A DNA stretch of 21,275 nt from a virus. Shown in pieces: positions 848 through 19,762 of the stretch. Numbering within the stretch: the first letter of the stretch is position 1; the number at the start of each line of letters is the position of its first letter. The position numbers were made by a program, and so were the translations under genes. The DNA lies in the IMG/VR virus record IMGVR_UViG_3300009285_000324, positions 1 to 21,275 of that record; one strand, given 5' to 3'. Below the pieces are notes generated by a model, which worked only from the letters and a program-made list of their open reading frames with translations, searched no databases and was not told the DNA's origin.

Positions 848-860
848 TTTAATCCCGTAT

Positions 861-893: not shown

Positions 894-895
894 AT

Positions 896-5245: not shown

Positions 5246-5891
5246 GAAAATAGAAGTGGGAGAGACTTTCCTTGTCGCGGGAGATTGTTCTCAGGGTGGA
5301 AAAGATAGTAATGTTTGTGCTTTCTTAAGTAAGACTAAGCTGGATTACCCTATTGTTTACAAGAAACGTGGAGTTGCGGCAGACATGACAGTGGATATAT
5401 TTCCGGTATTGGAATGGTTGTTTGACACAACGGGGATTGCTCCTATTGTAGCATTTGAAAGAAACAATGGTGGTGGTAGCGAGATGGAGAGACTAAGGGT
5501 TTTGAACAGAAATAACAAGTATCGTATCTATTTAATGAAGAAGTCTGGGCAAACTACGGGAGAGGAAGAGACAAAAGACATGGGTTACAACACAAACACA
5601 GCGACAAGACCTGTATTAGTGGGGGACTGGAAACAAACCTTCGATGCCAAGCTGGTCAAGATATACGATGAGGACGTGATAGATCAGCACATGGCATTTG
5701 TGGTTAATAATATGGGTAAACCAGAGGCGGCAAAGAACAGACACGATGATGCCGTAATAGCCCCCGCAATAGGTTGGCAAATGTATCAAAACTCCAATAG
5801 TATTTCCAACTATGAAAACGAAAACAAACAATCTTACGGGCCTAATTATGAGAGTATCAACCAAGGTTTGGGTAAAAAGTGGAGCATATGA
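5223..5891 (+). CDS. terL: terminase large subunit, nuclease domain
   Basis: The 222-residue frame is the RNase H-fold nuclease half of TerL, which cuts concatemers. FLVAGDCSQGGKDSNVCAF supplies the first acid (D21), IVAFERNNGG the second (E79), and RHDDAVIAPAIGW the third (D175/D176), all in family order. It overlaps the ATPase frame by 23 nt, with no SD before ATG 5223. A +1 shift within the ATT CAG region would read TYAT-FRIYRK straight through. It is either a real two-gene or frameshifted terminase, or an indel in the assembly or genome. The stop overlaps the next ATG. Confidence 0.8.
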   Translation: MQPFRIYRKIEVGETFLVAGDCSQGGKDSNVCAFLSKTKLDYPIVYKKRGVAADMTVDIFPVLEWLFDTTGIAPIVAFERNNGGGSEMERLRVLNRNNKYRIYLMKKSGQTTGEEETKDMGYNTNTATRPVLVGDWKQTFDAKLVKIYDEDVIDQHMAFVVNNMGKPEAAKNRHDDAVIAPAIGWQMYQNSNSISNYENENKQSYGPNYESINQGLGKKWSI

Positions 5892-6193
5892 TTTCAATAC
5901 CAACTGTCCAACAAGATTACGAGTGTTACGATAAACAACTCGAAGTAAATAATGCAAAGGCTGAAGAGTTATTGGGTCAGTTATTCCCGGAACTTAAACT
6001 ACCCAGAGAAGACATATTTAACATTCTTTCATTCTTACAGGAGACCAAGGTTAACGCTCAGATATTACCCAAGGTGATTAGAGGCGTGTATAACTTAACA
6101 ATCGGAACAGGCAAGGGTCAGGTGATAGTCTACGTCAAAGGCGAAACCGTGAATGTACAAACAAGAGAGACGGATGAGGATATACATTTGTAA
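5888..6193 (+). CDS. hypothetical protein, 101 aa
   Basis: The ATG at 5888 overlaps the terminase stop (ATGA); a GTG at 5879 is a less likely start. The 101-residue protein has an acidic helical N-terminal half, then a beta-rich segment (GVYNLTIGTGKGQVIVYVKGETVNVQ). It sits between terminase and portal. No family is recognised, but a conserved small virion or packaging accessory protein would fit the position. It ends just before the first promoter-terminator leader. Confidence 0.6.
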   Translation: MISIPTVQQDYECYDKQLEVNNAKAEELLGQLFPELKLPREDIFNILSFLQETKVNAQILPKVIRGVYNLTIGTGKGQVIVYVKGETVNVQTRETDEDIHL

Positions 6194-6213
6194 TTTAAGA
6201 AATTGTCTTAATA

Positions 6214-6222
6214 TGTTATAAT
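6214..6222 (+). promoter_or_regulatory. extended -10 promoter of leader A (portal unit)
   Basis: TGTTATAAT (6214-6222) is a perfect TGn-TATAAT extended -10 element, followed by AG. No good -35 lies 17 bp upstream, as is usual for extended -10 promoters. The predicted start is near 6229. It is followed by GAGGT-TGT-ACCTT (6236-6248), which can form a 5-bp mini-hairpin, and then a terminator hairpin. The same order recurs at 11893 and 19338. Confidence 0.6.
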
Positions 6223-6250
6223 AGCTAAGACGTACGAGGTTGTACCTTAA

Positions 6251-6274
6251 GGCGGGCGAGAGCCCGTCTTTTTT
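6251..6274 (+). terminator. intrinsic terminator in leader A, upstream of portal
   Basis: GGCGGGC-GAGA-GCCCGTC (6251-6268) forms a 7-bp stem with one G-U pair and a GNRA-type GAGA loop, followed directly by six T residues (6269-6274). The portal ATG lies 12 nt beyond. With the promoter about 30 bp upstream, transcription starting there would yield a leader RNA of roughly 45 nt unless the terminator is read through. Confidence 0.7.
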
Positions 6275-6285
6275 GTTGCCTAAAT

Positions 6286-8298
6286 ATGCCCAAAAATACC
6301 ACATCATCACTAGTTAGGGGAACCGATGAAGAAATAAAACTCTTCAAAGCCGTTAATGATCACTACAAAATAGCTAGAGAAGATCTTGAAACCCGCATTA
6401 CACGCAAGAATGGGTTTGATGATGCGGACAAGATGTTTGCTTCTTACATAGATGAGGCTAATTGGCCCTACTCTTCTCAACTCTTCGATCCAATTCCCTA
6501 TACGGTTATTTTAGAGAAGTCCGGGCGCTTAGTTGGAAGTAAACCTAAAGGCAGACTTGTTCCAAGGGAGGGTGGAGATTCACTCGGAGCTTTCATAAAT
6601 AACGAACTTCTCAGTTACCAGTGGGAAGACAATACCCGCCTGGGAGAGAGCATGATAGCCAAATGGTCTTTAATGGATATGAATGTTAGGAAGTACGGTT
6701 CATCATTTGCTATTTGTAAGTGGAAAAAAGAGAAAAAGGTCAGTAAAGACGGGGACAAAGTATCAAGCGAAACATTCTATGATGGCCCTGACTTCACTGT
6801 GTGCAATCCGAGAGACGTTCTGGCCAATCCTTCTTACTCTTTCATTAACAAATGGTTTCAGTATAGAGAGTATTCAACGCTCGACGAACTTAAAAGAGTC
6901 AATGATACCTCAGTAAGCAAGAATGTTTACAAGAACCTGGACATATTACAAGCCTCCTTAGACGAAGAGAAAGCACAAAAGGGCGACAGGAGGGACAACA
7001 ACTACACCATTAAGAATAAATCAATGCGCGGACTGTCTGATTACATGGGAACTGATGAGGTTTACCCCGTAATTGAGTTGATCACTGAGTATAGACCCGA
7101 CAGATGGATTACTTTTGCTCCTAAACACGGTGTAATCGTCCGAGACATACCAAATCCCTATAAACACGGAGAAATTCCTGTAATTCATCTTAAATACTAT
7201 CCACTTCCTGATGATTTGTATGGAGTAAGTGAACTAGAGCCAGTTGCAAAGCAAATTAGAGCCATCAACGCACACCTTTCAGCGTATTCAGACACCATTG
7301 CACTGGCTCTAAGACCCCCAATTCACGTTAATCCGGTGAATGTCCGTATGCACACGCTTGAGTGGAACCCTGAAGCTAAATGGTTGATGAATAATCCAAA
7401 TGTAGATGTGCAGCAAATGAAAGTAGATACAAGCATGACCACAAACTTCCAGTCTATCTATATGGTTCTTAAAGGAAGCCTAATGAACGCCTTAGGTGAG
7501 CAGTCTCAGGGCATAAGTAGCAATAACCCACAGGATGCACAAAGGGTAACGGCTACGGAAGTTAAAGACACGGCATTTACCAGAAACATCAGGGACAACA
7601 TGAACCAGGTCTATCTGTCCGAGGCACTGAAGAAACAAATCATGTTCTGGCACATTATGAACCAACAGTTTATGTTCAAGGGTTCGGTGGATAAGCAGAG
7701 AATAATTAGGATTGTAGGACGTGAGGCCAACGAATACTTCAACCAAACAGGGTTGGGAGACATAAGACCCACGGAAGAGGATGCTAACCAAGTGGCCGCG
7801 GGACAATTAAATGAGAAAGACATTCCCCAAGGACCAAGATTTGCAGTTGGGGTGGGGCCGGATGAGATGGGTAATGAATTGGAGATTCCTAAGTATATGC
7901 CTGATGAAAACGGAGTTGGGGGAAATCTGGTTATAGAAGAGGGCGATCTTATGGGTGTGTATGACTACATTCCCGATATCGAGTCTATGGGTGCGCCGAC
8001 GGATCAACAGGTTGAGACCAAACTGACAGCCATATTAGGGATGTTAGTCAACCCCGCCATCCAACAAGGATTGGCGTCTGAAGGAAAGAAGGCCAAATAC
8101 TCTGAGCTTTTGATCAAGATGCTGGAATCGTCCAAGGTTATTAAAGATGCTGATCAATACTTTGAGGATCTTCCCCCGCAACAGCCCATGGCTCCAGAAG
8201 ACCCTAATGCTCCCCCACAGGGCGCTCCTCCTACAATGCCTGGAATGAATCAGACAGCAGGACAGACACAATCGCCACCGATGGCGGGAATGCAATGA
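6286..8298 (+). CDS. portal protein
   Basis: The 670-residue protein follows terminase and precedes scaffold and capsid, the standard position for the portal, the dodecameric ring through which DNA enters the head. Recognisable segments include LFDPIPYTVILEKSGRLVGS (about 66-85), the central DDLYGVSELEPVAKQIRAIN crown/stem region, and TATEVKDTAFTRNI before the long stem helix. The C-terminus is Pro/Gln/Met-rich, a flexible barrel-like tail. No SD precedes ATG 6286; it starts 12 nt after a terminator T run. The stop overlaps the next ATG. Confidence 0.85.
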   Translation: MPKNTTSSLVRGTDEEIKLFKAVNDHYKIAREDLETRITRKNGFDDADKMFASYIDEANWPYSSQLFDPIPYTVILEKSGRLVGSKPKGRLVPREGGDSLGAFINNELLSYQWEDNTRLGESMIAKWSLMDMNVRKYGSSFAICKWKKEKKVSKDGDKVSSETFYDGPDFTVCNPRDVLANPSYSFINKWFQYREYSTLDELKRVNDTSVSKNVYKNLDILQASLDEEKAQKGDRRDNNYTIKNKSMRGLSDYMGTDEVYPVIELITEYRPDRWITFAPKHGVIVRDIPNPYKHGEIPVIHLKYYPLPDDLYGVSELEPVAKQIRAINAHLSAYSDTIALALRPPIHVNPVNVRMHTLEWNPEAKWLMNNPNVDVQQMKVDTSMTTNFQSIYMVLKGSLMNALGEQSQGISSNNPQDAQRVTATEVKDTAFTRNIRDNMNQVYLSEALKKQIMFWHIMNQQFMFKGSVDKQRIIRIVGREANEYFNQTGLGDIRPTEEDANQVAAGQLNEKDIPQGPRFAVGVGPDEMGNELEIPKYMPDENGVGGNLVIEEGDLMGVYDYIPDIESMGAPTDQQVETKLTAILGMLVNPAIQQGLASEGKKAKYSELLIKMLESSKVIKDADQYFEDLPPQQPMAPEDPNAPPQGAPPTMPGMNQTAGQTQSPPMAGMQ

Positions 8299-8603
8299 TC
8301 AAACTGACAGACGAAGAAAAGAAGATTCAATTACAAGGTTCTCAGTTGAGAGTAATGACCGAGACACCCGGATGGAAAGAAGTATTTATGCCTTATTTTG
8401 AGGCCAAGATACGGAATGCTTGGGTGGATCCCCGGGAGTTTAAGAGTGATGAGGAGTATGCCTACGCAATGAAGACGGCTTGGGCGATGGCTAAAGCAAG
8501 TGATGAAATTATCGAGTTTGTAGAAAAGACCATAGAAGAGGGAATTGCTATGGGTGAGAAACAAAAAGGGAAGGTGAACAAATTGACCGAGTCAATGAGT
8601 TAG
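8295..8603 (+). CDS. small conserved phage protein after portal
   Basis: The ATG at 8295 overlaps the portal stop and has GCGGGA about 5 nt upstream. The 102-residue protein has the pattern TPGWKEVFMPYFEAKIRNAWVD then EFKSDEEYAYAMKTAWAMAKASDEI, which I recognise as a helical small protein often found directly after portals. No enzyme motif is present. A structural or head-assembly role is inferred from position only. Confidence 0.6.
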   Translation: MIKLTDEEKKIQLQGSQLRVMTETPGWKEVFMPYFEAKIRNAWVDPREFKSDEEYAYAMKTAWAMAKASDEIIEFVEKTIEEGIAMGEKQKGKVNKLTESMS

Positions 8604-8620
8604 AAAGCGGGTGAGTATAT

Positions 8621-8875
8621 ATGACAACAACAATAGTAAATAGAGGAATTTGGGAAAGAGACACAAACGGCAGAAGAACAACCAATCTTAGGAAATCCTT
8701 TGGTGAAGTTGGAACAGTACGTGTTGTTTATCAAGGAATCGAATATGTATTCGGTCCCGGAGAAACCAAATCCTTTAGTGATGATGGAATTGCAGCGGGG
8801 ATAGTAGCGGCTGATTCAAGGCTTGGTGCAGTTGACACAAGGGAGGGTTTCAGATCAACAGGTGGAAGAAGTTAG
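8621..8875 (+). CDS. hypothetical virion-type protein, 84 aa
   Basis: ATG 8621 is preceded by GCGGGTGAG (8607-8615), an SD-like sequence. The 84 residues are beta-rich (VRVVYQGIEYVFGPGETKSFSD) with an acidic Ala/Gly-rich tail. Such short proteins between portal and capsid are often minor head or decoration proteins. There is no firm family match. Confidence 0.6.
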   Translation: MTTTIVNRGIWERDTNGRRTTNLRKSFGEVGTVRVVYQGIEYVFGPGETKSFSDDGIAAGIVAADSRLGAVDTREGFRSTGGRS

Positions 8876-8881
8876 CATGAA

Positions 8882-9118
8882 ATGGAAAATAAACAAAAAC
8901 TTGATGATCTACCCCAAAGTGATGACAAGTTTTGGGAAGGCGCTGAGATCCATATGGGACTTGTTACCAAAGACGATCCTGCAGACGTTCATTACTTTGT
9001 CAGGACAACGGGTAGACAGGCACAATGCAGGGGTTGTGATTGGGGATTTGAATTAGATCCGGGGGATTGGATAGAAGACGGACATTTATATACAAAAGAA
9101 GGAAAACTTGTGATTTGA
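8882..9118 (+). CDS. small CxxC protein, 78 aa
   Basis: Two ATGs lie close together, at 8877 and 8882. The frame at 8882 encodes a protein with WEGAEIHMGLV, a single CRGC knuckle (QCRGCDWGFEL) and a DGHLYTKEGKLVI end, which reads like a conserved small phage protein with one half-zinc site. The overlapping 8877 frame gives a low-complexity basic shadow. It ends just before the hairpins upstream of the scaffold gene. Confidence 0.6.
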   Translation: MENKQKLDDLPQSDDKFWEGAEIHMGLVTKDDPADVHYFVRTTGRQAQCRGCDWGFELDPGDWIEDGHLYTKEGKLVI

Positions 9119-9163
9119 GTTCAGGGGAAGCCATCTTTCCCTTGAACCTAGACCACAAGTCTA
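9119..9163 (+). promoter_or_regulatory. two hairpins upstream of the scaffold gene
   Basis: Right after the stop at 9118, GTTCAGGGGAA (9119-9129) pairs with TTCCCTTGAAC (9137-9147) as an 11-bp stem with one G-U pair and a 7-nt loop. A second small stem TAGAC/GTCTA (9149-9153, 9159-9163) follows. There is no T run, so a standard terminator is unlikely. An mRNA-processing or stability element between head genes is an alternative. Confidence 0.5.
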
Positions 9164-9212
9164 TGCGGACCCGCCAACCGTTAAACCAGGCTGAAGAAAG
9201 GGGGTGAGTATT

Positions 9213-10028
9213 ATGACAGTCCAAAACTCTGTAAAGGCAGAAGAAAGCGTGGTAGAGCCGGAACCTACCCAAGTAGCCCCGCCAACTACTGAAGAACCAA
9301 CTACTGAGGTTCAAACGGAAGTTAAAGAGTCCTTTGATCAAGGCTCTGTAGCTGAAGAATCTGTTGATATGCCTGAAGACGTAGAGGAACAACGAAGGGC
9401 GTTCCAAGAACAACGTCAGGAAATCAAAAGGTTGAAGTTGGAGAAGCAGAATCGTGCAAAAGGGGAATCTGCATTTAGTGCGTTTAGACAGCAGACACCT
9501 CCAGTTGGTCAAGTTAATGCTGTGAATATACAGGACTTTCAAGATCCTATCACAGGCGAGACAAACTGGCAGGCTTATAACCAGCAAATCAACAACGCTC
9601 TAGTTCAGAATCGCCAGAGTGCGACATATGAAGCGCAGCAGGCAGTTAGGGAAGAGATGGACGAGCAAACAGCCCGCACCAAATATCCCGAACTGTTTAG
9701 CGATCCAGAAGTCGAGCAAGAAATTGCCGATAGGTGGATTGCCGCCAAGCTTAGGGATGAAAATCCCTCAGTCACCGACATTGCTGATCGTGTATCGAAG
9801 CGATTTGGCAAGACCATATCCAAAGCCGAAAAAATAGGCGCGGAGAAGATTCTTAACGAAGTATCTGAAAAGGAGCAGGCAAGTTTAACCGTTTCCGGTC
9901 AGACTTCCCAACCAGCAAAACAAGCAGCTTCGGCTGAACAACTTGAAGAACTGAGCAGGAAGACAAGATTTGGAGACGATGACGCTATTGCGGCTCGTAT
10001 TTCAAAGATACCTTGGGCAAATAAGTAG
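9213..10028 (+). CDS. probable head scaffolding protein
   Basis: The 271-residue protein lies directly before the major capsid gene. It has the usual scaffold composition: an acidic Glu/Pro/Thr-rich N-terminus, a Lys/Arg/Gln/Glu-rich helical segment (VEEQRRAFQEQRQEIKRLKL), then an extended helical region and a basic Trp-containing C-terminus (ISKIPWANK). ATG 9213 is preceded by AAAGGGGG-TGA (9197-9207), a strong SD; an upstream GTG at 9204 sits inside that SD and is rejected. It assists prohead assembly and is normally removed from the mature head. Confidence 0.7.
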   Translation: MTVQNSVKAEESVVEPEPTQVAPPTTEEPTTEVQTEVKESFDQGSVAEESVDMPEDVEEQRRAFQEQRQEIKRLKLEKQNRAKGESAFSAFRQQTPPVGQVNAVNIQDFQDPITGETNWQAYNQQINNALVQNRQSATYEAQQAVREEMDEQTARTKYPELFSDPEVEQEIADRWIAAKLRDENPSVTDIADRVSKRFGKTISKAEKIGAEKILNEVSEKEQASLTVSGQTSQPAKQAASAEQLEELSRKTRFGDDDAIAARISKIPWANK

Positions 10029-10033
10029 CCCTA

Positions 10034-10079
10034 TCCAATCTAAGGCAATAGATTGGACCAGGGGGCGACTATTGCTTTA
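10034..10079 (+). promoter_or_regulatory. mutually exclusive hairpins before the capsid gene
   Basis: TCCAATCTA (10034-10042) and TAGATTGGA (10049-10057) form a perfect 9-bp hairpin with a 6-nt loop. The same central stretch TAAGGCAATAG (10041-10051) can instead pair with CTATTGCTTTA (10069-10079), 11 bp with one G-U pair. The second stem ends just before the capsid SD (AAAGGAG, 10081-10087), 11 nt upstream of ATG 10099. The two folds cannot coexist, so translation or processing of the capsid message could switch. Confidence 0.5.
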
Positions 10080-10098
10080 GAAAGGAGAAAAAACAAAT

Positions 10099-11019
10099 AT
10101 GTTAACGACATTTTATGATACAAGCAGGAGAGAAGATCTTTTGGATGTAATCGGAGACGTTACACCGGATGACACACCATTGGCAACAATGTTGGGCACC
10201 AGTGTCGCCAAAGATACAGTCCATCAGTGGTTAGAGGATTATATAACTCCTCCGACCTCCGTTTCCTTCTCAGCAGAAGGAGCAGCAGCGACATACGCCG
10301 CTCTTGATCAACCGACTAGAATCACAAATCTTACAGCGATCTTAACCGAAAACTTCCGTGTTTCCGGTACAGAAATGGCTGTCACCCCCGCGGGTGGTGA
10401 TCCTCTCAATTACCAATCTGGTAAATCTTTGAGAAGTTGGAAGATGAAGCAAGAGTACGCTCTTGTAAACGGAGCTTTAAGCTCAGGTGTTTCAGGAACT
10501 GGTGCCTCAATGGCAGGGTTAACCGGAGTCATTACGACTTTGGCAACCTCCAGAAATTCTGGTACATCACTATCTGAAACCGAGTTCCAAGATATGCATC
10601 AGCATTCATGGGACAAAGGTGGAACAGATAATGCTTTCGACTTAGTCCTTGTTCCTTTTAATCTTAAGAGGAAAATTGACGGGTTTACAGCAGGAGCGAC
10701 GAAGTACGTTGATCAATCCGACAAGAAGCTTACACAACCAGTAGCTACTTACGAGACATCAGCTGGAGTTGCAAGAATTATGCAACACAGATATGTTCCC
10801 GGAACCGCAGCGTCAGTTGCGACAGCTATTTCGAGTGCAAATGCTTTCTTGGGTATTAAAGAAGATCTGTTTAAAGTAGCTTACCTACGTAAGCCGTTTA
10901 AAAAGATGCTTGCCGTCGATGGTGACCGTGAGAATGGTCAGATCGTTGGTGAGTTTACTCTTGAGTACCGTGGAGAGAGAACCTCTGTCTATCGACAGGG
11001 TTACGCAGTCAACGGCTAA
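10099..11019 (+). CDS. major capsid protein, SU10-like
   Basis: The 306-residue protein has the N-terminus MLTTFYDTSRREDLLDVIGD followed by VTPDDTPLATMLG, characteristic of the SU10-type HK97-fold major capsid family (Pfam DUF5309-like). The C-terminal YRGERTSVYRQGYAVNG also matches this type. It forms the icosahedral head. A strong AAAGGAG lies 11 nt upstream of the start, consistent with high expression. The immediate neighbours are the scaffold gene before and small head-completion-type genes after. Confidence 0.85.
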   Translation: MLTTFYDTSRREDLLDVIGDVTPDDTPLATMLGTSVAKDTVHQWLEDYITPPTSVSFSAEGAAATYAALDQPTRITNLTAILTENFRVSGTEMAVTPAGGDPLNYQSGKSLRSWKMKQEYALVNGALSSGVSGTGASMAGLTGVITTLATSRNSGTSLSETEFQDMHQHSWDKGGTDNAFDLVLVPFNLKRKIDGFTAGATKYVDQSDKKLTQPVATYETSAGVARIMQHRYVPGTAASVATAISSANAFLGIKEDLFKVAYLRKPFKKMLAVDGDRENGQIVGEFTLEYRGERTSVYRQGYAVNG

Positions 11020-11040
11020 TAAAAAGCCTTGACGAGCACG

Positions 11041-11083
11041 AAACGGGTGACCGTTTTATAGTACCAGCCCCTTACTGGTACTA
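11041..11083 (+). promoter_or_regulatory. two tandem hairpins after the capsid gene
   Basis: AAACGG-GTGA-CCGTTT (11041-11056) is a 6-bp stem with a GNRA-type loop. TAGTACCAG (11059-11067) and CTGGTACTA (11075-11083) form a perfect 9-bp stem with a 7-nt loop. They fill the space between the capsid stop and ATG 11089, which has no SD. No T run follows. They may protect the 3' end of the capsid message or damp expression of the next gene. Confidence 0.5.
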
Positions 11084-11088
11084 ATAAG

Positions 11089-11562
11089 ATGGACACTACA
11101 CAGCTTGAAACTGTTGATCCCTATATGTCTCATTATGTATATGAGAAGACCGTTGATCCCAAGGCTCCCATTGTGTGGAAACAGTATCAAAAGAGGTTGG
11201 TAGATAGGACCAATAGGATTATCGAGTTGGCGCACGGAGAAAGGGACACCGTCAAATCCCAAAGCGATTGGACGGTAGTGGAGGAACTTTTAAACTTTTG
11301 GGCTGATGAATATCCTCTAGAGTATGGAGAATTTAGAAAGACCATTCCCGAAATCAGGGGTTCAAGGAATGCGGGAGGTTATTCAAGCAGTGGAGAGATC
11401 AAATACTTGGGTGCGTTACCCCCGAGGTTTGTGAAGATGATTAAGGTAATCTTTCCTTTTCAACAGTTTGACAAGGCATTTATGTATAAGTTAATTAAGA
11501 GATTCCCGATGTTCAAGATAGGTGGAGAGGGAAACTTGTCGAAAGGCAAGAGTATAATATAG
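11089..11562 (+). CDS. hypothetical head-region protein, 157 aa
   Basis: The ATG at 11089 begins 5 nt after a 9-bp hairpin, without an SD. The 157-residue protein starts with an acidic segment (VDPYMSHYVYEKTVDPKAPI), has a central helical region, and ends basic (FMYKLIKRFPMFKIGGEGN). The position after the capsid gene suggests a head-completion or connector-type role, but no family motif is visible. Confidence 0.6.
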   Translation: MDTTQLETVDPYMSHYVYEKTVDPKAPIVWKQYQKRLVDRTNRIIELAHGERDTVKSQSDWTVVEELLNFWADEYPLEYGEFRKTIPEIRGSRNAGGYSSSGEIKYLGALPPRFVKMIKVIFPFQQFDKAFMYKLIKRFPMFKIGGEGNLSKGKSII

Positions 11563-11564
11563 TT

Positions 11565-11885
11565 ATGGCAATTCAAAACAAAACAACCAGCGCAGCAGAA
11601 CACGATTGGTATGCTACCCGCAGTGGTTTACCCAACACGGCACCTCTAGGAGATCACAAAGCAACCTACTTTGGGACTAAGGGTTTTGGTGCAAACATGA
11701 GCATCGCTAAACCCTTAAGTCAGATAGAGGATGAATGGTTAACTAGCGTAGGCGGGGCAACGTGCGGTGGTCCGTATGAGAAATGGACAATGGCCTGTAT
11801 AGCTCAGTCAGTGCCGGTTGGGATAACAATAGACGAATGTAAACGCAACTTCTTTACGGGTGTGGCTTCAGGTACAAATCCTTAA
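11565..11885 (+). CDS. hypothetical virion-region protein, 106 aa
   Basis: ATG 11565 comes 2 nt after the preceding stop. The protein (MAIQNKTTSAAEHDWYATRS) is Gly/Ala/Thr-rich with three cysteines (ATCGGP, MACIAQ and IDECKR) and no membrane segment. It is the last gene before leader B and the glycan island. A small structural protein is plausible from position. A TATAAT at 11553-11558 upstream lacks both TGn and a -35 and is not called a promoter. Confidence 0.6.
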   Translation: MAIQNKTTSAAEHDWYATRSGLPNTAPLGDHKATYFGTKGFGANMSIAKPLSQIEDEWLTSVGGATCGGPYEKWTMACIAQSVPVGITIDECKRNFFTGVASGTNP

Positions 11886-11892
11886 CATATTG

Positions 11893-11901
11893 TGATATAA
11901 T
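11893..11901 (+). promoter_or_regulatory. extended -10 promoter of leader B (glycan island)
   Basis: TGATATAAT (11893-11901), followed by AG, matches the extended -10 element of leader C exactly over 11 nt and that of leader A at all but one position. GAGAT-TGC-ATCTT (11918-11930) downstream aligns with GAGGT-TGT-ACCTT of leader A, with a compensatory pair change (G-C to A-T), so the mini-hairpin looks conserved. The predicted start is about 11908. A terminator hairpin follows before ATG 11961. Confidence 0.6.
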
Positions 11902-11936
11902 AGCGCAGTACCAAAACGAGATTGCATCTTTAGCTT

Positions 11937-11960
11937 GGGACACAACCGTGTCCCTTTTTT
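11937..11960 (+). terminator. intrinsic terminator abutting the glycosyltransferase start
   Basis: GGGACAC-AACC-GTGTCCC (11937-11954) is a perfect 7-bp stem with a 4-nt loop followed by six T residues (11955-11960). The next base is the A of the ATG at 11961. Transcripts that end here would stop just before the coding sequence, so the island genes should need read-through. Confidence 0.75.
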
Positions 11961-13715
11961 ATGTCAAAAATTGCCCTAAATATGATTGTAAAGGATGACA
12001 CGGAGGAGGAAATCCTTGTTCGTGCACTTCGGTCAGTCTCCAAATATGTAGACGCAATTTACATTACAGGAACCAAAGAACCCCAGAAAAGAATCAAGAA
12101 AGTTTGCAAGAAGTTTAATGCTCATTGGAGTTGGTTTCCTTGGGTTAAAGACTTCTCCGCTGCCAGAAACTTCGCATTAAATCAAGTGCCCAAAGAATAT
12201 GAGTGGATTTATTGGCAAGACAGTGATGATATTTTGGTTGGGGGAGAAACGTTCAAGGATGCCATCGAACAAGCCGAGAAGAATAATATGAAGGCCATCT
12301 TTGCCCGATACCTCTATCAAGTTGAGTTGGACGAAAAGGGAAATGTCAAACAAGTACTTATAGAACACCTTAGAGAGAGAATAATCCGAAATGATGGCAC
12401 CTATAAGTGGGTAGCTCCTATCCATGAAACACTTATAGAGCAGGTTCCGTCGGGTAAATTCGACTATCCGGGATTTATGGTGGTTCACTTGATTACTCCT
12501 GAAGAAATGCTTGGTTCGATGTATAGAAACATAGAGATATTGGAAGAAGAGGTAATGAAAAATCCCGCAGACCCAAGACCTATTTACTATCTGGCTAAGG
12601 CTTATTTTGACACCGGGGCACAGGAGCTTTTATATGACTCAGCTGGCCCCGGTCTTGAATCCATAACCATTGAGTTGATTAAAGACTATCTAAGGAAATC
12701 TGGTTGGGCCGAAGAAAGAGCTCAGGCGTGGGAATATCTTTCGATGATTTATCGGGAGATGGGAGACTCCAAGAAGGGAATTACCTGTCTCTTGGAAGCG
12801 TTAACCGAGAATCCTCTATTTACTTCGACCTATATTCAACTGGCACTTTTCTATGTAAACCTTAAAGATTGGGCCAAGGCACTTCATTGGGTGAAACTTG
12901 CGGGTAAAGTAGAAATTCCCAAAACAACCCTGGTGGTTAACCCCAGAGATTACAAGTCAATGATACTTGAAGCTTTGTTCCATATCTATCTGAATACGGG
13001 GCAACTTGAATTGTGTCAAAAAGTAGCCCATGGGTTACAGGAGGTCTTGCCAAACGACATAAACAGTTCAAGAGTTGCACAGATTGACGATCTTAAACAC
13101 CGAAACGACATGGCACATTGGACACTCCAGTTGGCAACCCATTTAAGAGATACGGGGCAGAACGAACAGCTTGTTAATCTTATTAACGCTATCCCCAACG
13201 AGATAGCGGGAGAACCTACACTCGTAGACCTGAGAAATGCCTACTTACCACCGAGAAAGTGGAAAGATAACGAAATAATGCTTTACTGCGGTCCGCACTT
13301 TGAACAATGGAGTCCGAAGAACGTAAGTAAAGGAATTGGAGGTTCAGAGGAGGCTGTAATCTATTTGATGAGAGAGATGGCCAAACTAGGTTGGAAAGTT
13401 ACCGTATATGGAGATCCCCGCGAAGACGTGGGAGTGTATGACGGAGTAACTTACCTCCCACACTTCCACATCAACTGGAAAGACGAGTTTAATATCGTTA
13501 TTGCCTGGAGACAGATTCAACTAGTGGATGTTCCGGGACTTAAAGCCAAAAAGATATACCTCTGGAACCACGATCTACAAAACGCAATGACCTACACACC
13601 TGAAAGAGTAGCCAAATTGACTAAGGCAATGTTCCTTTCAAAGTTCCACAGAGACAATGTGCCTGATTTACCAGAAGACAAGGTTATGTTAACGGCCAAC
13701 GGAATAAATATATGA
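11961..13715 (+). CDS. GT2 glycosyltransferase + TPR + N-terminal half of a GT-B domain
   Basis: The 584-residue protein starts with a GT2-type GT-A domain (KIALNMIVKDD at 3-13, nucleotide-sugar DSDD at 87-90, APIHET at 152-157), then a helical TPR-like region (about 185-420), then the N-terminal Rossmann half of a GT4-type GT-B domain. That half shows NEIMLYCGPHFEQWSP (437-452), GIGGSEEAV (458-466), YLWNHDL (533-539) and FLSKFHRDN (558-566), and stops at LTANGINI. The C-terminal sugar-nucleotide half normally following is absent here but present in the protein at 13845. ATG 11961 begins directly after a terminator T run. Confidence 0.8.
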   Translation: MSKIALNMIVKDDTEEEILVRALRSVSKYVDAIYITGTKEPQKRIKKVCKKFNAHWSWFPWVKDFSAARNFALNQVPKEYEWIYWQDSDDILVGGETFKDAIEQAEKNNMKAIFARYLYQVELDEKGNVKQVLIEHLRERIIRNDGTYKWVAPIHETLIEQVPSGKFDYPGFMVVHLITPEEMLGSMYRNIEILEEEVMKNPADPRPIYYLAKAYFDTGAQELLYDSAGPGLESITIELIKDYLRKSGWAEERAQAWEYLSMIYREMGDSKKGITCLLEALTENPLFTSTYIQLALFYVNLKDWAKALHWVKLAGKVEIPKTTLVVNPRDYKSMILEALFHIYLNTGQLELCQKVAHGLQEVLPNDINSSRVAQIDDLKHRNDMAHWTLQLATHLRDTGQNEQLVNLINAIPNEIAGEPTLVDLRNAYLPPRKWKDNEIMLYCGPHFEQWSPKNVSKGIGGSEEAVIYLMREMAKLGWKVTVYGDPREDVGVYDGVTYLPHFHINWKDEFNIVIAWRQIQLVDVPGLKAKKIYLWNHDLQNAMTYTPERVAKLTKAMFLSKFHRDNVPDLPEDKVMLTANGINI

Positions 13716-13855
13716 AGAAGATTAAATTTGGTACATCACCACCGCCACAGTGTAGACATTTTAGGGTTCTGGGGTTGAAATATGTTCCACCCAAAATGGG
13801 AAAGATAAAATGTCCTGATTGCAATACTTTAATTTATATTAACAATGAACGCTAA
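13712..13855 (+). CDS. tiny Cys/His protein between the glycosyltransferase halves
   Basis: An ATG overlapping the preceding stop (ATGA) opens 47 codons. The cysteines are QCRH (C14, H16) and CPDC (C34, C37), enough for one zinc site, and the N-terminus is basic (MKKIKFG). Its last 11 nt overlap the ATG at 13845. It lies exactly where the glycosyltransferase domain is broken, so it may have arrived with the inserted segment. The function is unknown. Confidence 0.55.
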   Translation: MKKIKFGTSPPPQCRHFRVLGLKYVPPKMGKIKCPDCNTLIYINNER

Positions 13856-16454
13856 AGATTTAACATTTTACGGAAACGACAAAGAGGATCAGTTCCTATA
13901 CGAACAATTTAATCTAATGCCCGATAATGGGGTAATGGTTGATGTGGGAGCGGGACCTGATGGTATTCAAGGATCAAACTCATACTTCTTTGAAAAGAAT
14001 GGTTGGAAAGTAATATGTATTGACGCTGATCCTAGAAACGTTCAAGGGTTACAAAAAAACAGGAAGGTGGGTGTGGGTGCATTGGTAACCAACAAAAAAG
14101 GAACACTCAAGTTTTACATGAACCGAAAGACACCTGATATATCGGGAATTATAAAGACCACAGACAATGCCGACTATTCAGCCGAGTTAAAAGGTACAAC
14201 CCTCGAAAAGATATTAGTAGATCATGGTGTGTCAAACATAGACATTCTTTCGATTGATACCGAGGGTAGTGAAATAGATGTGTTTGAGTCTATGGATTTT
14301 GGCAAACACAAGCCGAAACTGCTAATTATTGAAGTTGTAACTCAGGGAAAGTTTAATCCAGAAGTTCAACCTTATTTTGAAGACAGGGGTTATCACATGG
14401 TTGCCGAAGTTGGTGCCAATCAAATATTCGCACTAAAAAAACCCATTGTTAGAAATCCTCATAGAATCATATACGGTTCAAGCTATGACAGAGGGCTGGA
14501 ACACTTACTCAAAATGTGGCCGGACGTTATAAAGGAAGTGCCTGATGCGGAACTCCATATCTTTTACGGGTGGAATTTGTTTGATTTGGGTTATTCAGAC
14601 AACCCAGAACGCATGGCATGGAAAGAAAAGATGAACGGGCTGATGAATCAACCGGGGATAACCCACCTGGGACGCATAAGTCACGACCTGGTTGCGTTAG
14701 AAAACAAAGAAGCGGGAATTTGGGCGTACCCGACGCACTTTGGGGAAATATCTTGCATTACGGCGATGAGAGCACAAGCTTTAGGTGCAGTGCCCGTTGT
14801 AATCGACTACGGAGCGGTACACGAGACCGTACAGCATGGAATTAAAATTCCCGGAGATGTATATGATCCTGAAACCAAGGCTAAATTTAAGGAAGAACTT
14901 ATATCGTTACTTAAAGACATAAAACGCCAGGAAGACATCAGAGAACCGATGGTTAAATGGGCCAAAGAGCATTTCTCTTGGTCTAAGGTGGCAAAAAAAT
15001 GGTCGGATGAATTTAAAAAGGAAGAAACGGTTGAAGAACGTGCCATGAAGTTGATTTTAGCCGATGAACCCCTAGAAGCAGCTCTGCTTTTGAAAGAAGA
15101 CTCTCCTTTAAGACAAAAACTACTTAAAAAATTGGATCACATGACCAATCCCGAAGCCTATGCTAAAAAATATGCAGATGACCCCATGAATTGGAAGCCG
15201 GAAGTAGACGCAGTAGACATGGCAAGGCACGCGTGGATATTAGACGAGGCAAAAGACGCTAAAAACTTAATAGATTTGGGTTGCTATGAAGGAAGTCTGC
15301 TTAAAAGATTCGGAAAAGGGGCAAGGGGTGTTGAGATGTGCAAAGAGGCGGTAAAACTTGGTAATAGCAGAGGACTAAATATGGTTCAGGGTGATGCCTG
15401 TACTTACCAGGATGCCGACAGGTATGATGCTGTTTGTGCTTGTGAGTTGATAGAACACGTAGCCAAACCCAATGACTTGATAGAAAATATGCTTAGGTTA
15501 GTTTCCGATAACGGTTGGTGTTACGTAACAACTCCCAACGGACCCGTTGATCCCAAAGGTACTTTCAAGACATGGATCGATGAGGACGCTTTAATAGATC
15601 ATGTCAGAGCCTACAATAAATCAAAAGTTGAAAAACAACTCAGGGGCTTAGAGTATGAGATATTTGAACACGGCAAAGAGTTGTGGTTTAAATTCAGGAC
15701 TAATTTAGACAAGCACGTTGAGGCACTTCTTGAAGATAATCAGGCACTAAAAGCATGGGAGTTAGTCAAAGACACCAATTCACCACTAAAGGAGAAGTTG
15801 TGGCCAAGAGTCAAACACGCTTTTAATAAAAAAGATTATGTTAAATACTATTCAGAGGACTTAGTTGAAACTCCGATACCAGAAGAACTTTGTACCGAAG
15901 CAGATAGAATGTACCCACGTATAGGTTGGCTTATTAAGAGGATTGAAGAACAAAAAGCTAGAACTGTAATAGATTTAGGGTGTGCGGATGGGTATGTTTG
16001 TTTGACTCTAGCAAAAAGGGGAGTTTTTCAATGTATGGGGGTTAATCTCTATAAACCATCCGTAGATATAGCAGAAGAGCGTGGAATGAAATATAGATTG
16101 AATACAAAGTTTAAGTGCATGGATTTATTTGATGTAGAGAATAAAGCTGATGCAGTTGTACTATTTGAAGTCCTTGAACACCTACCCGATGCGAAGAAAG
16201 CAATAGATCATTGTATGTCCTTGGTAAACAAAAGGGGAAGATTCTATCTATCAACCCCATCCCCTGATCATCTGGGAATAATACTTCACAAAGAAGAGGG
16301 GCACGGGACAGACTGGACAGACACCAAACCGTCGGGACACCTAAGAATCTATACGGAGTCCGAACTCAGAGAATTATTAAAAGACTACAAGATAGAAAGG
16401 TTTGAGATTGATGAGCAAGGGTGTTATTTAATGGAGGTGAGTCACGTTGTATAA
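13845..16454 (+). CDS. FkbM methyltransferase + C-terminal half GT-B + two methyltransferase domains
   Basis: An 869-residue multidomain protein. Residues 1-200 are an FkbM-type SAM methyltransferase (MVDVGAGPDGIQGSNSYFF at 31-49, ICIDADPRN at 57-65, SIDTEGSEIDVFESMDF at 136-152). Residues 204-391 are the C-terminal half of a GT4-like GT-B domain (HRIIYGSSYDRGLEHLL, PTHFGEISCITAMRAQALG). Residues 404-620 and 626-869 are two class I methyltransferases (LIDLGCYEGSLL with CELIEH; VIDLGCADGYVC with FEVLEHLP), each preceded by a related helical linker. Likely substrates are glycans being built by neighbouring glycosyltransferases. The GT EX7E second acid is Arg (R309). Confidence 0.8.
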   Translation: MNAKDLTFYGNDKEDQFLYEQFNLMPDNGVMVDVGAGPDGIQGSNSYFFEKNGWKVICIDADPRNVQGLQKNRKVGVGALVTNKKGTLKFYMNRKTPDISGIIKTTDNADYSAELKGTTLEKILVDHGVSNIDILSIDTEGSEIDVFESMDFGKHKPKLLIIEVVTQGKFNPEVQPYFEDRGYHMVAEVGANQIFALKKPIVRNPHRIIYGSSYDRGLEHLLKMWPDVIKEVPDAELHIFYGWNLFDLGYSDNPERMAWKEKMNGLMNQPGITHLGRISHDLVALENKEAGIWAYPTHFGEISCITAMRAQALGAVPVVIDYGAVHETVQHGIKIPGDVYDPETKAKFKEELISLLKDIKRQEDIREPMVKWAKEHFSWSKVAKKWSDEFKKEETVEERAMKLILADEPLEAALLLKEDSPLRQKLLKKLDHMTNPEAYAKKYADDPMNWKPEVDAVDMARHAWILDEAKDAKNLIDLGCYEGSLLKRFGKGARGVEMCKEAVKLGNSRGLNMVQGDACTYQDADRYDAVCACELIEHVAKPNDLIENMLRLVSDNGWCYVTTPNGPVDPKGTFKTWIDEDALIDHVRAYNKSKVEKQLRGLEYEIFEHGKELWFKFRTNLDKHVEALLEDNQALKAWELVKDTNSPLKEKLWPRVKHAFNKKDYVKYYSEDLVETPIPEELCTEADRMYPRIGWLIKRIEEQKARTVIDLGCADGYVCLTLAKRGVFQCMGVNLYKPSVDIAEERGMKYRLNTKFKCMDLFDVENKADAVVLFEVLEHLPDAKKAIDHCMSLVNKRGRFYLSTPSPDHLGIILHKEEGHGTDWTDTKPSGHLRIYTESELRELLKDYKIERFEIDEQGCYLMEVSHVV

Positions 16455-16593
16455 AAATAAATGTGGAACTTGTGGTAAAGAGATGATGTCATTTGCTAAA
16501 GACAAACAGGGGACATTACCGGTAGTTTACTGTAGCAAAGCGTGTGAGGTTAATGCTAAGTACGAAAAGAGGTTTGATAAAAGATTCAAATGA
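16447..16593 (+). CDS. tiny FCS-like zinc-finger protein, TTG start
   Basis: A TTG at 16447, overlapping the previous stop, is preceded by GGAGGTGA (16433-16440) at 6-nt spacing, one of the best SDs in the window. This supports the unusual start. The 48 residues carry CGTCG (C6, C9) and YCSKAC (C29, C33), then a basic tail (AKYEKRFDKRFK). The layout matches the protein at 3123 (CQHCG then YCTRTC), so the two may be related zinc fingers in different modules. The stop overlaps the next ATG. Confidence 0.6.
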   Translation: MYKNKCGTCGKEMMSFAKDKQGTLPVVYCSKACEVNAKYEKRFDKRFK

Positions 16594-17399
16594 AAATCGC
16601 TGTTATTTGGTACTTCGGCAAGGCCAGTCAAGTTTATGATAACTGGCGCGATGGTTTGCGTGCTGCAATAGAGATTCTGGGTAAAAAACACCAAATAAGT
16701 TGGTTTTTGGATAAAAACGTACCAACCCCTGAAGATAAATACGACTTCTACTTGGTTTGGGATGACTCTAATACAGAATCTACCAAGTTTTTGCCAAAAG
16801 ATGCCAAAAAAGGGCTCTGTCTGACAACCGATCCGACCAACTTTGATAATCTAAGAAAATTTGATGTAGTCTACTGCGAAAGTGAACCCGTCTATGACCA
16901 AGTCAGACGTGAGGGTATACGGGCAATAAGGGCATTCGGCACAGACACAGACTTTTTTACTCCCCAAAAGGTAGAGAAAGATATCGAGTATTTTTATCCG
17001 GCCACTTTTTCGCCGTGGAAACTTCAACGGGACATTGCTTATCTAGGAAAGAAGATCCTGTGTGTGGGAACTTTCCAACCGGATGGTTTTGAAGACTACG
17101 ACAAATGTGTTAAAGAGGGTGTCCAGATTAAACTGGGGTATTTTCCTCCGCAGGTAATTAGAGATTATTACAGTAGGGCCAAAAAAGTGATTGTTCCCGC
17201 CATCCACGGCTCGGAGCGTACAGTTTTAGAGGCAATGAGTATGAATATCCTACCGGAAGTAACTAATTTAAGGAATGTACGTACCAAATCTTACATTTAC
17301 GAGTTCAAGAGATCTGATTGTGTTACACCCAGAGAGTTTGTTATTAAAAACTATTCGGCATGGCAATACGCAGCAGATCTGGAAAGGGGTATGGAATGA
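16590..17399 (+). CDS. GT-B glycosyltransferase-like protein (GT4-like)
   Basis: ATG 16590 overlaps the preceding stop. The 269-residue protein opens with a beta-strand (MKIAVIWYFG) and an N-terminal domain with the acceptor-side FYLVWDD (53-59). It then has KKILCVGTFQPDGF (154-167), the start of the donor Rossmann half, and RAKKVIVPAIHGSERTVLEA (196-215), which resembles the GT4 donor loop where SERT replaces the usual E-rich motif. It is short for GT4 proteins, so it is a compact or divergent member. A glycan-building role is inferred from the island. Confidence 0.65.
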   Translation: MKIAVIWYFGKASQVYDNWRDGLRAAIEILGKKHQISWFLDKNVPTPEDKYDFYLVWDDSNTESTKFLPKDAKKGLCLTTDPTNFDNLRKFDVVYCESEPVYDQVRREGIRAIRAFGTDTDFFTPQKVEKDIEYFYPATFSPWKLQRDIAYLGKKILCVGTFQPDGFEDYDKCVKEGVQIKLGYFPPQVIRDYYSRAKKVIVPAIHGSERTVLEAMSMNILPEVTNLRNVRTKSYIYEFKRSDCVTPREFVIKNYSAWQYAADLERGME

Positions 17400-18091
17400 G
17401 GGTTATAATGCCTTGTTGGCTTAGAGATTCTGACCTCGTAGACCTAACCGAAAATGCTATCAAATCTTTACGTGAGAACGATGTTGAAATTACTATTATT
17501 GATAATGCTTCTCCTATTGGTGGCGGTGCTCTCCGAGAATGGGCTGATGAGTACGTCAGGAATCCGATAAATTTGGGTTACGCCAAGGCGGTCAATCAGG
17601 GTTTGAAACTTCATATAGGGGAGGTTGTGGCCGTGGCGAATAACGATATTAGAGTCAGTAAGAATTGGCTTTCCGTGTCGGAAGACATAATGAAAGATCC
17701 AGAAGTTTGTTCGGTACACTTCAGAATGGTCCTATACGATCAACCATGGAATCCGAGTAATGAAACATTTATCGGAGGCAAAGAGAGGTGGTGTTCGTCG
17801 TCGTTCTTCGTTGTGAGAGGCGATAGATTGTACGACGAGCACTACCTCAATAGTTATGACGATTGGGATATGTGGAAATGGTGGAGATCGCAGGGATTAA
17901 AACAGGCTTATACAAACAAGGCCGAATATCAACACCTAGATTCATCAACCGTTAACAGAATGGAAAAACACGAAATTGCCAACGTGGAGAACAGGGAATA
18001 CTTCAAAGAGAAGTGGGGCAAGTATCCGGAGGAAGACTTTGCTGAAGAATTTGGAGAACAACTAAAAACCCCGTGGAAACCTTTTCCTTGA
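17396..18091 (+). CDS. GT2-family glycosyltransferase
   Basis: ATG 17396 (ATGA overlap, AAAGGGG at 17383-17389) gives 231 residues; the longer frame from 17360 is rejected because its extra residues only re-read the previous gene. GT-A features are clear: ITIIDNASP (32-40), NLGYAKAVNQG (59-69), the DXD-equivalent NND in VANNDI (80-85), and SSSFFVVRGDRL (134-145) before the DDWDMW acid cluster (155-160). It resembles rhamnosyl- or galactofuranosyl-type GT2 enzymes and transfers a sugar from a nucleotide donor to a growing glycan. Confidence 0.8.
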   Translation: MRVIMPCWLRDSDLVDLTENAIKSLRENDVEITIIDNASPIGGGALREWADEYVRNPINLGYAKAVNQGLKLHIGEVVAVANNDIRVSKNWLSVSEDIMKDPEVCSVHFRMVLYDQPWNPSNETFIGGKERWCSSSFFVVRGDRLYDEHYLNSYDDWDMWKWWRSQGLKQAYTNKAEYQHLDSSTVNRMEKHEIANVENREYFKEKWGKYPEEDFAEEFGEQLKTPWKPFP

Positions 18092-18092
18092 T

Positions 18093-18608
18093 ATGCTCAG
18101 TACAACGATAGACTTTGTAAAAAAGTTTAAAAAAGAACACCCCTTCTTGGGTAGGGTTTTGGACGTTGGTTCATTAGACATAAACGGAAACTTAAGAGGA
18201 GAGTTTGAGGAATTTGACTATATCGGTATAGATATGCGCCCCGGAAAAAACGTAGACATAGACATCAACGGGCACGACTTAAAAGAAACATTTAAAAAGG
18301 GAGAGTTTGATATAGTGATGTGTTTTGACACACTTGAACATGATATCCAGTTTTGGTTGACGGTTGAAAACATGAAGTGGGTACTTAAAAAGGGCGGATG
18401 GTTACTCGTGGGCGCTCCATCAATCAACCATCCTAGACACAATCACCCCTACGATTATTATAGATTTACAAGAGATTCTTTTTCACAATACATCTTTGGA
18501 GACATGACGAACGTTTTTATTAGAGAGGATTATTACAACGTACCCGAAAACTCAGATTACAACGAAGACAAACCCGATCAAGTATTTGGATGGGGACAGA
18601 AACAATGA
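18093..18608 (+). CDS. class I SAM-dependent methyltransferase
   Basis: The start is 1 nt after the previous stop. The 171-residue protein shows motif I VLDVGSLDING (22-32), an acid after the second strand (YIGIDMRPG, 43-51), DIVMCFDTLEHD (73-84) and WLLVGAPS (103-110), then HNHPYDYYRFT (116-126). This pattern matches small Methyltransf_11/23-type proteins in glycan clusters, where they O-methylate sugars or act on carrier-linked intermediates. The substrate is unknown. The stop overlaps the next start. Confidence 0.75.
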   Translation: MLSTTIDFVKKFKKEHPFLGRVLDVGSLDINGNLRGEFEEFDYIGIDMRPGKNVDIDINGHDLKETFKKGEFDIVMCFDTLEHDIQFWLTVENMKWVLKKGGWLLVGAPSINHPRHNHPYDYYRFTRDSFSQYIFGDMTNVFIREDYYNVPENSDYNEDKPDQVFGWGQKQ

Positions 18609-19345
18609 TTTCAATAATTACACCAACAACCAGGCCTGAGCTTCTCCCGATTATCGAAAAATGCCTTAAAAGGCAGGATTTTACCGACTGGGAATGGATA
18701 ATCGTGTCTCCCAAAGAAATAGACACAGTTAAACCAACGCTTCTACTCAAAGACCCTCCTAAACAACCTAATGACTTCTGGACACTCTGCAAGGGGTGGA
18801 ATAAAGCCTATGCTCACGCTAAAGGAGGTTTGGTCGTGAATATTCAGGACGGGATTTGGTTTCCGCCTGATATACTCTCAAAATTCTGGTTTCACTATCA
18901 AAACCAGCCTCGGATTTTAGTGTCTGCAATAGGACACCAATATGGGGGCTTTGATGATATGGGTAAGCCCGTCAACGAGGTTTGGCACGATCCCCGGTCA
19001 AGAACAGACGTAAGCTTTCAGGAAGTTCCCCCAAGTGAGATGGAGATGGTGATGTGTTCTATTCCTAGACAGGCAATACTTGAGTGTGGTGGAATAGACG
19101 AGATTTATGATACCTGTAACGGGGCACAGGAAAAAGAGATGTGTTGGAGGCTAAATAAGTTGAATTGGGACTTTTACATAGACCACACGATTGAATACCG
19201 CGCCATTCACCACCCCAGACTTACGGAAAATTGGGACAAGGTGTATACGGAAAAAACCACTCCTTTATTTGTTAAACACATGACCGAGTTAGACAACGAA
19301 ACAAGAACCTTAAATGTCGATAGTATTAAGAAGTACATGATATAA
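18605..19345 (+). CDS. GT2-like glycosyltransferase, divergent DXD
   Basis: ATG 18605 overlaps the methyltransferase stop; an in-frame ATG at 18590 is less likely. Residues 1-10 (MISIITPTTR) are the GT2 opening strand. QDFTDWEWIIVSP (24-36) and NKAYAHAKGGLVVNIQDGIW (66-85) follow, with QDG where the DXD normally sits, and GGIDEIYD (162-169) plus GAQEKEMCWRL (173-183) as the catalytic-acid region. It is a 246-residue GT-A protein, probably active but with an unusual metal-binding motif. Its stop codon lies inside the -10 element of leader C. Confidence 0.7.
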   Translation: MISIITPTTRPELLPIIEKCLKRQDFTDWEWIIVSPKEIDTVKPTLLLKDPPKQPNDFWTLCKGWNKAYAHAKGGLVVNIQDGIWFPPDILSKFWFHYQNQPRILVSAIGHQYGGFDDMGKPVNEVWHDPRSRTDVSFQEVPPSEMEMVMCSIPRQAILECGGIDEIYDTCNGAQEKEMCWRLNKLNWDFYIDHTIEYRAIHHPRLTENWDKVYTEKTTPLFVKHMTELDNETRTLNVDSIKKYMI

Positions 19346-19346
19346 T
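19338..19346 (+). promoter_or_regulatory. extended -10 promoter of leader C
   Basis: TGATATAAT (19338-19346), followed by AG, is identical to leader B over 11 nt. It overlaps the stop codon (19343-19345) of the upstream glycosyltransferase gene. No -35 is seen 17 bp upstream. The predicted start is about 19353. The leader then has GTCAA-AGC-TTGAC (19353-19365), which can form a 5-bp mini-hairpin, before the terminator. Confidence 0.55.
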
Positions 19347-19372
19347 AGGTGAGTCAAAGCTTGACACTTATG

Positions 19373-19396
19373 GCCACTTAATTGGTGGCTTTTTTT
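19373..19396 (+). terminator. intrinsic terminator of leader C, abutting the next start
   Basis: GCCACT (19373-19378) pairs with GGTGGC (19384-19389), a 6-bp stem with one G-U pair and a 5-nt loop. Seven T residues (19390-19396) follow, and the ATG at 19397 comes immediately after. This is weaker than the leaders A and B hairpins but in the same position relative to promoter and gene. Confidence 0.65.
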
Positions 19397-19762
19397 ATGG
19401 AAGACAAAAATCCGACAGTTCATATAGAAGATCCTTTCTCATATAACTACATTGCGTTAAAAAAAACACAAGTAGACGAAAAACAGTTGCCGGGAGTAAA
19501 TGATGTGATAGTTGATCCGTTAAGTAATGCAATAGGGCATGAATTGGGAATAGACAATCCTCACAAATGGAACAAACTATATCAAAAAGTGTTTGTAATC
19601 ACCGAATGGGCAAAAGAAAGGTCGGGTCTTACCGATCCGGGAGAAATCATCAAATGGATCAATGAAAAATCGCAAGGAATGGCAACACTTGGAGCCAAGA
19701 AAATAAACAGTCTGTATGCAAATATTATGTTAGGAATTAGAAGGGGTAAAAATGAGTCTTAA
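19397..19762 (+). CDS. hypothetical virion-region protein, 121 aa
   Basis: The frame can be extended to a TTG at 19382 inside the terminator hairpin, but ATG 19397 right after the T run is the natural start. The 121 residues begin MEDKNPTVHIEDPF and include HKWNKLYQKVFVITEWAKER, a helix with aromatic residues, and a basic end. No family is recognised. It overlaps the next gene by 11 nt, so it is probably part of the tail or fibre unit. Confidence 0.6.
   Translation: MEDKNPTVHIEDPFSYNYIALKKTQVDEKQLPGVNDVIVDPLSNAIGHELGIDNPHKWNKLYQKVFVITEWAKERSGLTDPGEIIKWINEKSQGMATLGAKKINSLYANIMLGIRRGKNES

Follow-up and report, generated by a model that had tools for sequence, protein, structure and literature searches.

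A promoter that is closely followed by a terminator, with the first start codon only behind it, raises the question of how the genes downstream are switched on. Three such elements (A, B and C) were found in a 21,275-nucleotide (nt) stretch of DNA, positions 1 to 21,275 of IMG/VR record IMGVR_UViG_3300009285_000324 (hereafter the window), which is a 21 kilobase (kb) piece of the genome of an uncultured tailed phage. Each stands ahead of a gene block: A ahead of the portal block, B of the glycosyltransferase block and C of the tail block. It was found that the leader between promoter and terminator has a conserved alternative fold that uses the terminator's own 5′ arm. From these sequence patterns we consider it somewhat probable that late operons begin with these elements as promoter-proximal transcription attenuators, which would be opened by stabilisation of an antiterminator. 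'Late' and 'early' were assigned by gene content.

Promoter, leader and terminator at block starts

A sequence-only reading of the window had described the same order at three places, namely an extended −10 promoter, a leader with a mini-hairpin, an intrinsic terminator and a start codon. All three layouts were found where that reading had put them, and the arrangement turned out to be more general than it had supposed. The motif TGNTATAATAG occurred in 3 copies, all on the + strand and exactly at the three sites; 300 dinucleotide shuffles gave a mean of 0.05 and a maximum of 1. The ordered unit of promoter, 25–35 nt leader, terminator and start codon was found three times on the + strand and once on the − strand of the window, compared with 0.18 in shuffles for both strands together. 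Taken alone, the numbers of generic promoter and terminator consensus matches in the window were not above those of shuffles.

Counted from the last base of TATAAT up to the terminator stem, the leaders were 26 nt (A), 35 nt (B) and 25 nt (C) long. The distance from the T run to the ATG was measured to be 11, 0 and 0 nt; the previous values of 12, 0 and 0 were correct for B and C and off by one for A. The mini-hairpin proposed to be common to A and B, with a compensatory change, was indeed present (AGGT-TGT-ACCT and AGAT-TGC-ATCT, respectively), and the hairpin of C was different (GTCAA-AGC-TTGAC). It was also true that no Shine-Dalgarno (SD) sequence preceded the three ATGs, but this was dropped as a special clue because most other long genes likewise had none: an SD was present in only 44 of 145 other genes of more than 100 amino acids (aa) in five of these records (∼30%), leaving ∼70% without. 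The features of the three elements are as follows, where strict topology denotes an inner helix of 4 base pairs (bp) with a loop of 3–5 nt and an outer helix of 4 bp whose 3′ strand reaches into the terminator arm.

6195–6222, + strand: promoter of A, with −35-like TTAAGA (6195–6200) and extended −10 TGTTATAAT (6214–6222)
6223–6248, + strand: leader of A, with inner mini-hairpin AGGT-TGT-ACCT (6237–6247)
6231–6233 with 6252–6254, + strand: weak outer helix of A, 3 bp (CGT with GCG), outside the strict topology
6249–6274, + strand: intrinsic terminator of A, AAGGCGGGC-GAGA-GCCCGTCTT and T run
6286–8298, + strand: portal protein, first gene after A
11893–11901, + strand: extended −10 of B, TGATATAAT
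11902–11936, + strand: leader of B, with inner hairpin AGAT-TGC-ATCT (11919–11929); matched by the covariance model
11911–11914 with 11935–11938, + strand: outer helix of B (CCAA with TTGG), strict topology (p 0.014)
11937–11960, + strand: intrinsic terminator of B, GGGACAC-AACC-GTGTCCC and T6
11961–13715, + strand: first gene after B, glycosyltransferase-block protein with tetratricopeptide (TPR) repeats
19317–19346, + strand: promoter of C, with −35-like TCGATA (19317–19322) and extended −10 TGATATAAT (19338–19346), overlapping the stop codon of the upstream gene
19347–19371, + strand: leader of C, with inner hairpin GTCAA-AGC-TTGAC (19353–19365)
19347–19351 with 19375–19379, + strand: possible outer helix of C (AGGTG with CACTT), a variant outside the strict topology
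19372–19396, + strand: intrinsic terminator and T run of C
19397–19762, + strand: first gene after C, encoding a tail-block protein; an element precedes its relatives as well (G002 36642, G021 16663, G001 22006)

Relatives were collected by portal searches of IMG/VR, which gave 28 contigs, and more were added with profiles of the block-B protein and the capsid protein. By inspection, a −10, a leader with mini-hairpin, a terminator with T run and then the ATG lay directly upstream of the portal gene in ∼43 distinct contigs, and the portals of element-bearing contigs reached down to ∼32% identity. The last eight contigs to arrive were held out and inspected only after the architecture had been described; all eight portal junctions kept the −10, the hairpin and the terminator. 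The pattern of homologues that keep terminators only, which had been predicted in case the order was accidental, was not seen in most relatives. At junction B the element was found in near relatives only, and farther relatives run the upstream gene straight into the block-B gene; the glycosyltransferase/methyltransferase block between head and tail genes was itself kept across the family.

The genome-wide scan (−35/−10, gap of 20–46 nt, terminator, start codon within ∼40 nt) of 24 records of up to 44 kb yielded 64 sites in the orientation of the capsid gene and 7 in the opposite one, with 5.8 expected from shuffles. Control scans gave no site in phiEco32 (first 50 kb) or T7 and one in lambda. 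Genomes G001, G002 and G021 carried 5, 7 and 6 sites, respectively. These lay where late blocks begin (portal, glycosyltransferases, tail block, adaptor and further virion genes), and no sites were found in the small-gene stretch upstream of terminase in these three genomes. These results agree with the previous expectation of more copies at unit boundaries in homologous genomes.

Leader fold and its overlap with the terminator

The conserved fold consists of a 4-bp hairpin inside a short outer helix, and the outer 3′ strand is the terminator's own 5′ arm. Because the outer helix uses this arm, antiterminator and terminator would be mutually exclusive. In the near portal group the leader was CGYY-A-AGAT-TGT-ATCT-AA-RRCG, with RRCG within the terminator 5′ arm, and RNAalifold, when given the plain alignment, picked the same 4+4 pairs unprompted. 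In the ungapped subset 97.9% of cells were paired, compared with 27–56% with slid partners, and three pairs had changed on both sides. Farther relatives showed the same plan in other letters (GCCT-AACA-GCTT-AGA-AAGC-ATA-AGGC in L046, AGTC-CGAA-ACCT-AGA-AGGT-AGA-GACT in L049). The selection on RNA structure that had been proposed from A and B was supported by the conserved leader fold and the covariation.

Strict topology was found in 25 of 44 non-redundant elements, compared with 3.2 for shuffled leaders. After the criteria had been frozen, it was found in 15 of the 56 remaining sites (3.26 expected); when four re-found training sites were left out, the held-out count was 12 of 52 against ∼3.1 (Poisson P 9e-5). 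The covariance model, which was built from nine leaders and run over 632 kb with E up to 5, recovered its own nine sites and five others, one of which was element B of the window. All five coincided with elements that the scan had located at other operon starts, and the model had no further matches. The exact-sequence scan for the mini-hairpin matched known near relatives only, and searches of Rfam at the curated threshold gave no match in the window or in 130 kb of relatives. Alignment of all leaders together by MAFFT was poor and was not used for covariation. Leader-peptide attenuation was rejected by inspection, since leaders of this length leave no room for a translated leader peptide.

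Leaders were more alike within a genome than between genomes (p 2e-4), and promoter DNA showed a smaller effect (p 0.011). Furthermore, the loop sequence was kept while the stems varied within one genome, AAGAC in G015 and GAAAA in G013. The within-genome likeness of leaders and the kept loops suggest that the leader RNA may be recognised by a phage-specific factor. As searches of 17 records gave neither a single-subunit phage RNA polymerase nor a sigma-70 region 2 domain, host RNA polymerase is the likely enzyme at these sigma-70-like promoters and thus for the late operons. In the same records, BglG-type CAT_RBD proteins were absent with positive controls (a host-encoded one could exist), Q-family proteins (PF06530, PF03589) were absent with a positive E. 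coli control (other Q families could exist), and NusG paralogues (LoaP/NusG-type) were absent with positive controls. The ANTAR-domain search gave no match, but its controls were silent too.

Proposed mechanism and rival explanations

From the above results we infer termination, read-through, their timing and a factor, as follows. Host RNA polymerase would start at the extended −10 promoter and make the 25–35 nt leader. The intrinsic terminator, which lies immediately ahead of the first start codon, would by default end transcription and leave a short RNA of ∼45–60 nt. In the alternative fold, the predicted antiterminator, the 4-bp mini-hairpin would sit in the outer helix formed with the terminator 5′ arm. 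Since the antiterminator is predicted to be weaker than the terminator, a phage-specific factor made earlier in infection would be needed to hold it; this factor would bind the mini-hairpin and the internal loop, and polymerase could then enter the late operon. With related leaders on several late operons of one phage, one factor would switch all of them on together. More tentatively, the late switch could be a regulon in which every late operon has an RNA antiterminator (up to 5–7 in all) that overlaps the operon's own terminator, and in which a single phage-specific RNA-binding factor of unknown family reads them all; such a regulon would take the place of a phage polymerase, sigma factor or Q.

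Several results weigh against attenuation by a held antiterminator. The strict topology was defined after the training sequences had been viewed, many of the 44 elements lack it (some because of mis-set terminator borders), and in the window it is present in B only, A having three outer pairs and C a variant. When the leader was folded together with the arm, the minimum-energy structures had no excess of linking bases (leader-arm pairs), and a Fisher test on per-element scores in the held-out set was not significant (0.14). As these stability tests were null, the evidence is that of topology and covariation and not of stability. The portal element was missing or incomplete in L019, L026, L045, L057, L058 and L067, and where portal identity was below 30%. 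Neither clustering of all open reading frames (ORFs) nor Pfam/PHROGs searches of 107 mostly early proteins gave a shared RNA-binding family; the latter yielded HNH, NinG, endolysins, and single helix-turn-helix or sigma-70 region 4 matches.

The main rival, which we regard as rather unlikely, is processive antitermination of the lambda kind, in which a boxB-like mini-hairpin or a promoter DNA site (Q, AlpA) loads a phage protein onto polymerase. Polymerase would then ignore all downstream terminators, and the overlap of leader fold and terminator would be secondary. The loop of lambda boxB is GAAAA, which was also the loop in G013, L128 and L129, and in G015 the loop (AAGAC) was conserved with a varied stem. 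The order of parts is also that of pR′/tR′ and of AlpA target promoters, where terminators lie 26–54 nt after the start site (PMC7969949). But pairing of the leader with the terminator arm is not expected from processive antitermination; neither a Q-family protein nor a NusG paralogue was found, and promoter DNA was less alike within a genome than the leader. The suggestion in the sequence-only reading that late transcription is controlled by antitermination was supported in general, but not in the form of a plain site upstream of a terminator as at lambda pR′/tR′.

The elements might merely be compact operon borders, with the leaky terminator of the upstream operon inside the next 5′ untranslated region and a leader without regulatory role. 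Elements do lie directly after the last gene of the previous block, and the −10 of C overlaps the upstream stop codon; but the conserved fold, the covariation, the within-genome leader likeness and the promoter-then-terminator order in most relatives would be left unexplained, and we give this a slim chance. Slender at best is the chance that the leader senses a small molecule or host physiology, as a riboswitch-like or host-protein attenuator, with no phage-made factor. Riboswitches, too, typically have a two-state architecture, and the searches gave no phage factor; but the recognition part is very small (4-bp stem, 3–5 nt loop), varies from phage to phage while being common to the leaders of a single phage, and matches no Rfam family. 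The elements could also be genes for trans-acting small RNAs of ∼45–60 nt, with the downstream genes expressed otherwise, since a folded RNA of constant size lies between a promoter and a terminator at several places in a genome. Free small RNAs of ∼45 nt had been the second proposal of the sequence-only reading, and this now seems very improbable, because every element is placed immediately ahead of a block's first gene, the leader is linked to the terminator by the outer helix, and a search for other promoters of the late blocks in G001 and the window found none. Chance plus ordinary terminators, its null explanation, is consistent with the generic consensus counts in the window, but conservation at ∼43 portal junctions and the count of 64 versus 7 sites by strand (∼6 in shuffles) make it negligible.

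The attenuator with a held antiterminator resembles several known systems in part. In the ribonucleic antiterminator (RAT) system of BglG/SacY/LicT, an RNA-binding protein holds a leader fold of 23–30 nt that shares part of its length with the terminator (PMC4347634). A short leader fold overlapping the terminator is common to both, but the elements here belong to phage late operons in several copies per genome, their loop and stems vary between phages, and no CAT_RBD was found. At ANTAR/EutV attenuators, several genes of a single locus are preceded by a terminator with a mini-hairpin upstream of it, and a second hairpin overlaps the terminator (PMC3369931). The upstream mini-hairpin and the overlap of antiterminator and terminator are alike, whereas ANTAR targets have two hairpins with hexanucleotide loops (A1, G4) and the elements here have one inner hairpin with loops mostly of 3–5 nt. 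Lambda Q at pR′/tR′ and AlpA share the promoter closely followed by an intrinsic terminator and opened for late (or lysis) genes, but lambda Q has one such late promoter, compared with up to 5–7 per genome here, where the structured leader pairs with the terminator. Lambda N/nut (boxB) is similar in its small leader hairpin with conserved loop, which is GAAAA in some phages here, and in its several copies per genome. In contrast to N/nut, which serves early operons, the hairpin here lies 1–5 nt before the terminator, the enclosing helix shares terminator bases, and the elements would act on late operons as judged by gene content.

HK022 put is likewise a leader RNA element that overcomes terminators and occurs in more than one copy per genome, the role proposed here; it is ∼70 nt long, is built of two long stem-loops and works without a protein (PMC9378689), whereas the fold here is 22–30 nt in a leader of 25–35 nt with one inner hairpin. 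A put-like RNA, which the sequence-only reading had also considered, is not indicated, given the much smaller size, the different plan and the lack of an Rfam match. Two features of an intrinsic-terminator attenuator were present, namely promoter, leader and terminator before the first gene and an alternative fold using terminator bases. For the RAT, ANTAR, Q, LoaP/NusG and put families a defining feature that was tested was absent; the overlap is RAT/ANTAR-like and the layout is pR′/tR′- or AlpA-like. Our best reading by analogy is a switch of the BglG/ANTAR type that would serve several late operons as one regulon. In the open-licence papers searched, no phage was described as controlling a late regulon by such attenuators, and an earlier description elsewhere is possible.

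It looks as if the late blocks in this phage family carry a reusable RNA switch. If true, phages would have a further way of timing their late genes, an RNA switch that recurs several times in a genome, and its scope would be diverse uncultured phages with SU10-like capsid proteins. The model predicts short leader transcripts and factor-dependent read-through, and a possible route to the factor is an early gene whose RNA specificity tracks the loop sequence of each phage. The elements would also provide a set of small natural attenuators.

Gene context and neighbouring features

The gene order around the elements in the window is as follows.

4226–5245 and 5223–5891: terminase, two overlapping ORFs
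6286: start of the portal gene
9204: scaffold-like gene
10099: SU10-type major capsid protein (PF17236)
11961–19345: glycosyl- and methyltransferase block
19397 onward: tail-type genes

The large terminase ORFs (4226–5891) are in different frames. As this split recurred in at least three relatives (L001, L003, L031), it may reflect a genuine two-ORF or frameshifted terminase gene rather than a sequencing error.

A protein of unknown family (∼90–110 aa; window 5888–6193) is encoded directly before the portal element in nearly all of 45 aligned relatives. Its model showed three helices and a beta-hairpin (predicted local distance difference test, pLDDT, of 87); in the PDB, fold matches were no better than E 0.26 and sequence matches were not convincing, and no PHROG was matched. 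It is not claimed as the trans-acting factor, being also present in genomes without the element. Two contig scans of genomes for a host gave no relative, and no annotated phage matched the portal.

In the early region of G002 (L144 15110–15290), a perfect TTGACA-18-TATAAT promoter without terminator was found 7–13 nt before a basic 45-aa ORF with 31% lysine and arginine, which is a candidate early regulator. The small-gene region of the window (581–1815) contained short ORFs resembling HNH endonucleases, and relatives had HNH and NinG/Rap-type genes there. On the − strand (window 576–440), a near-consensus promoter TTGACT-17-TATAAT pointed into an intergenic GC-rich inverted repeat (CCGGGCGGGG ... 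CTCCGCCCG), which might encode a small structured RNA.

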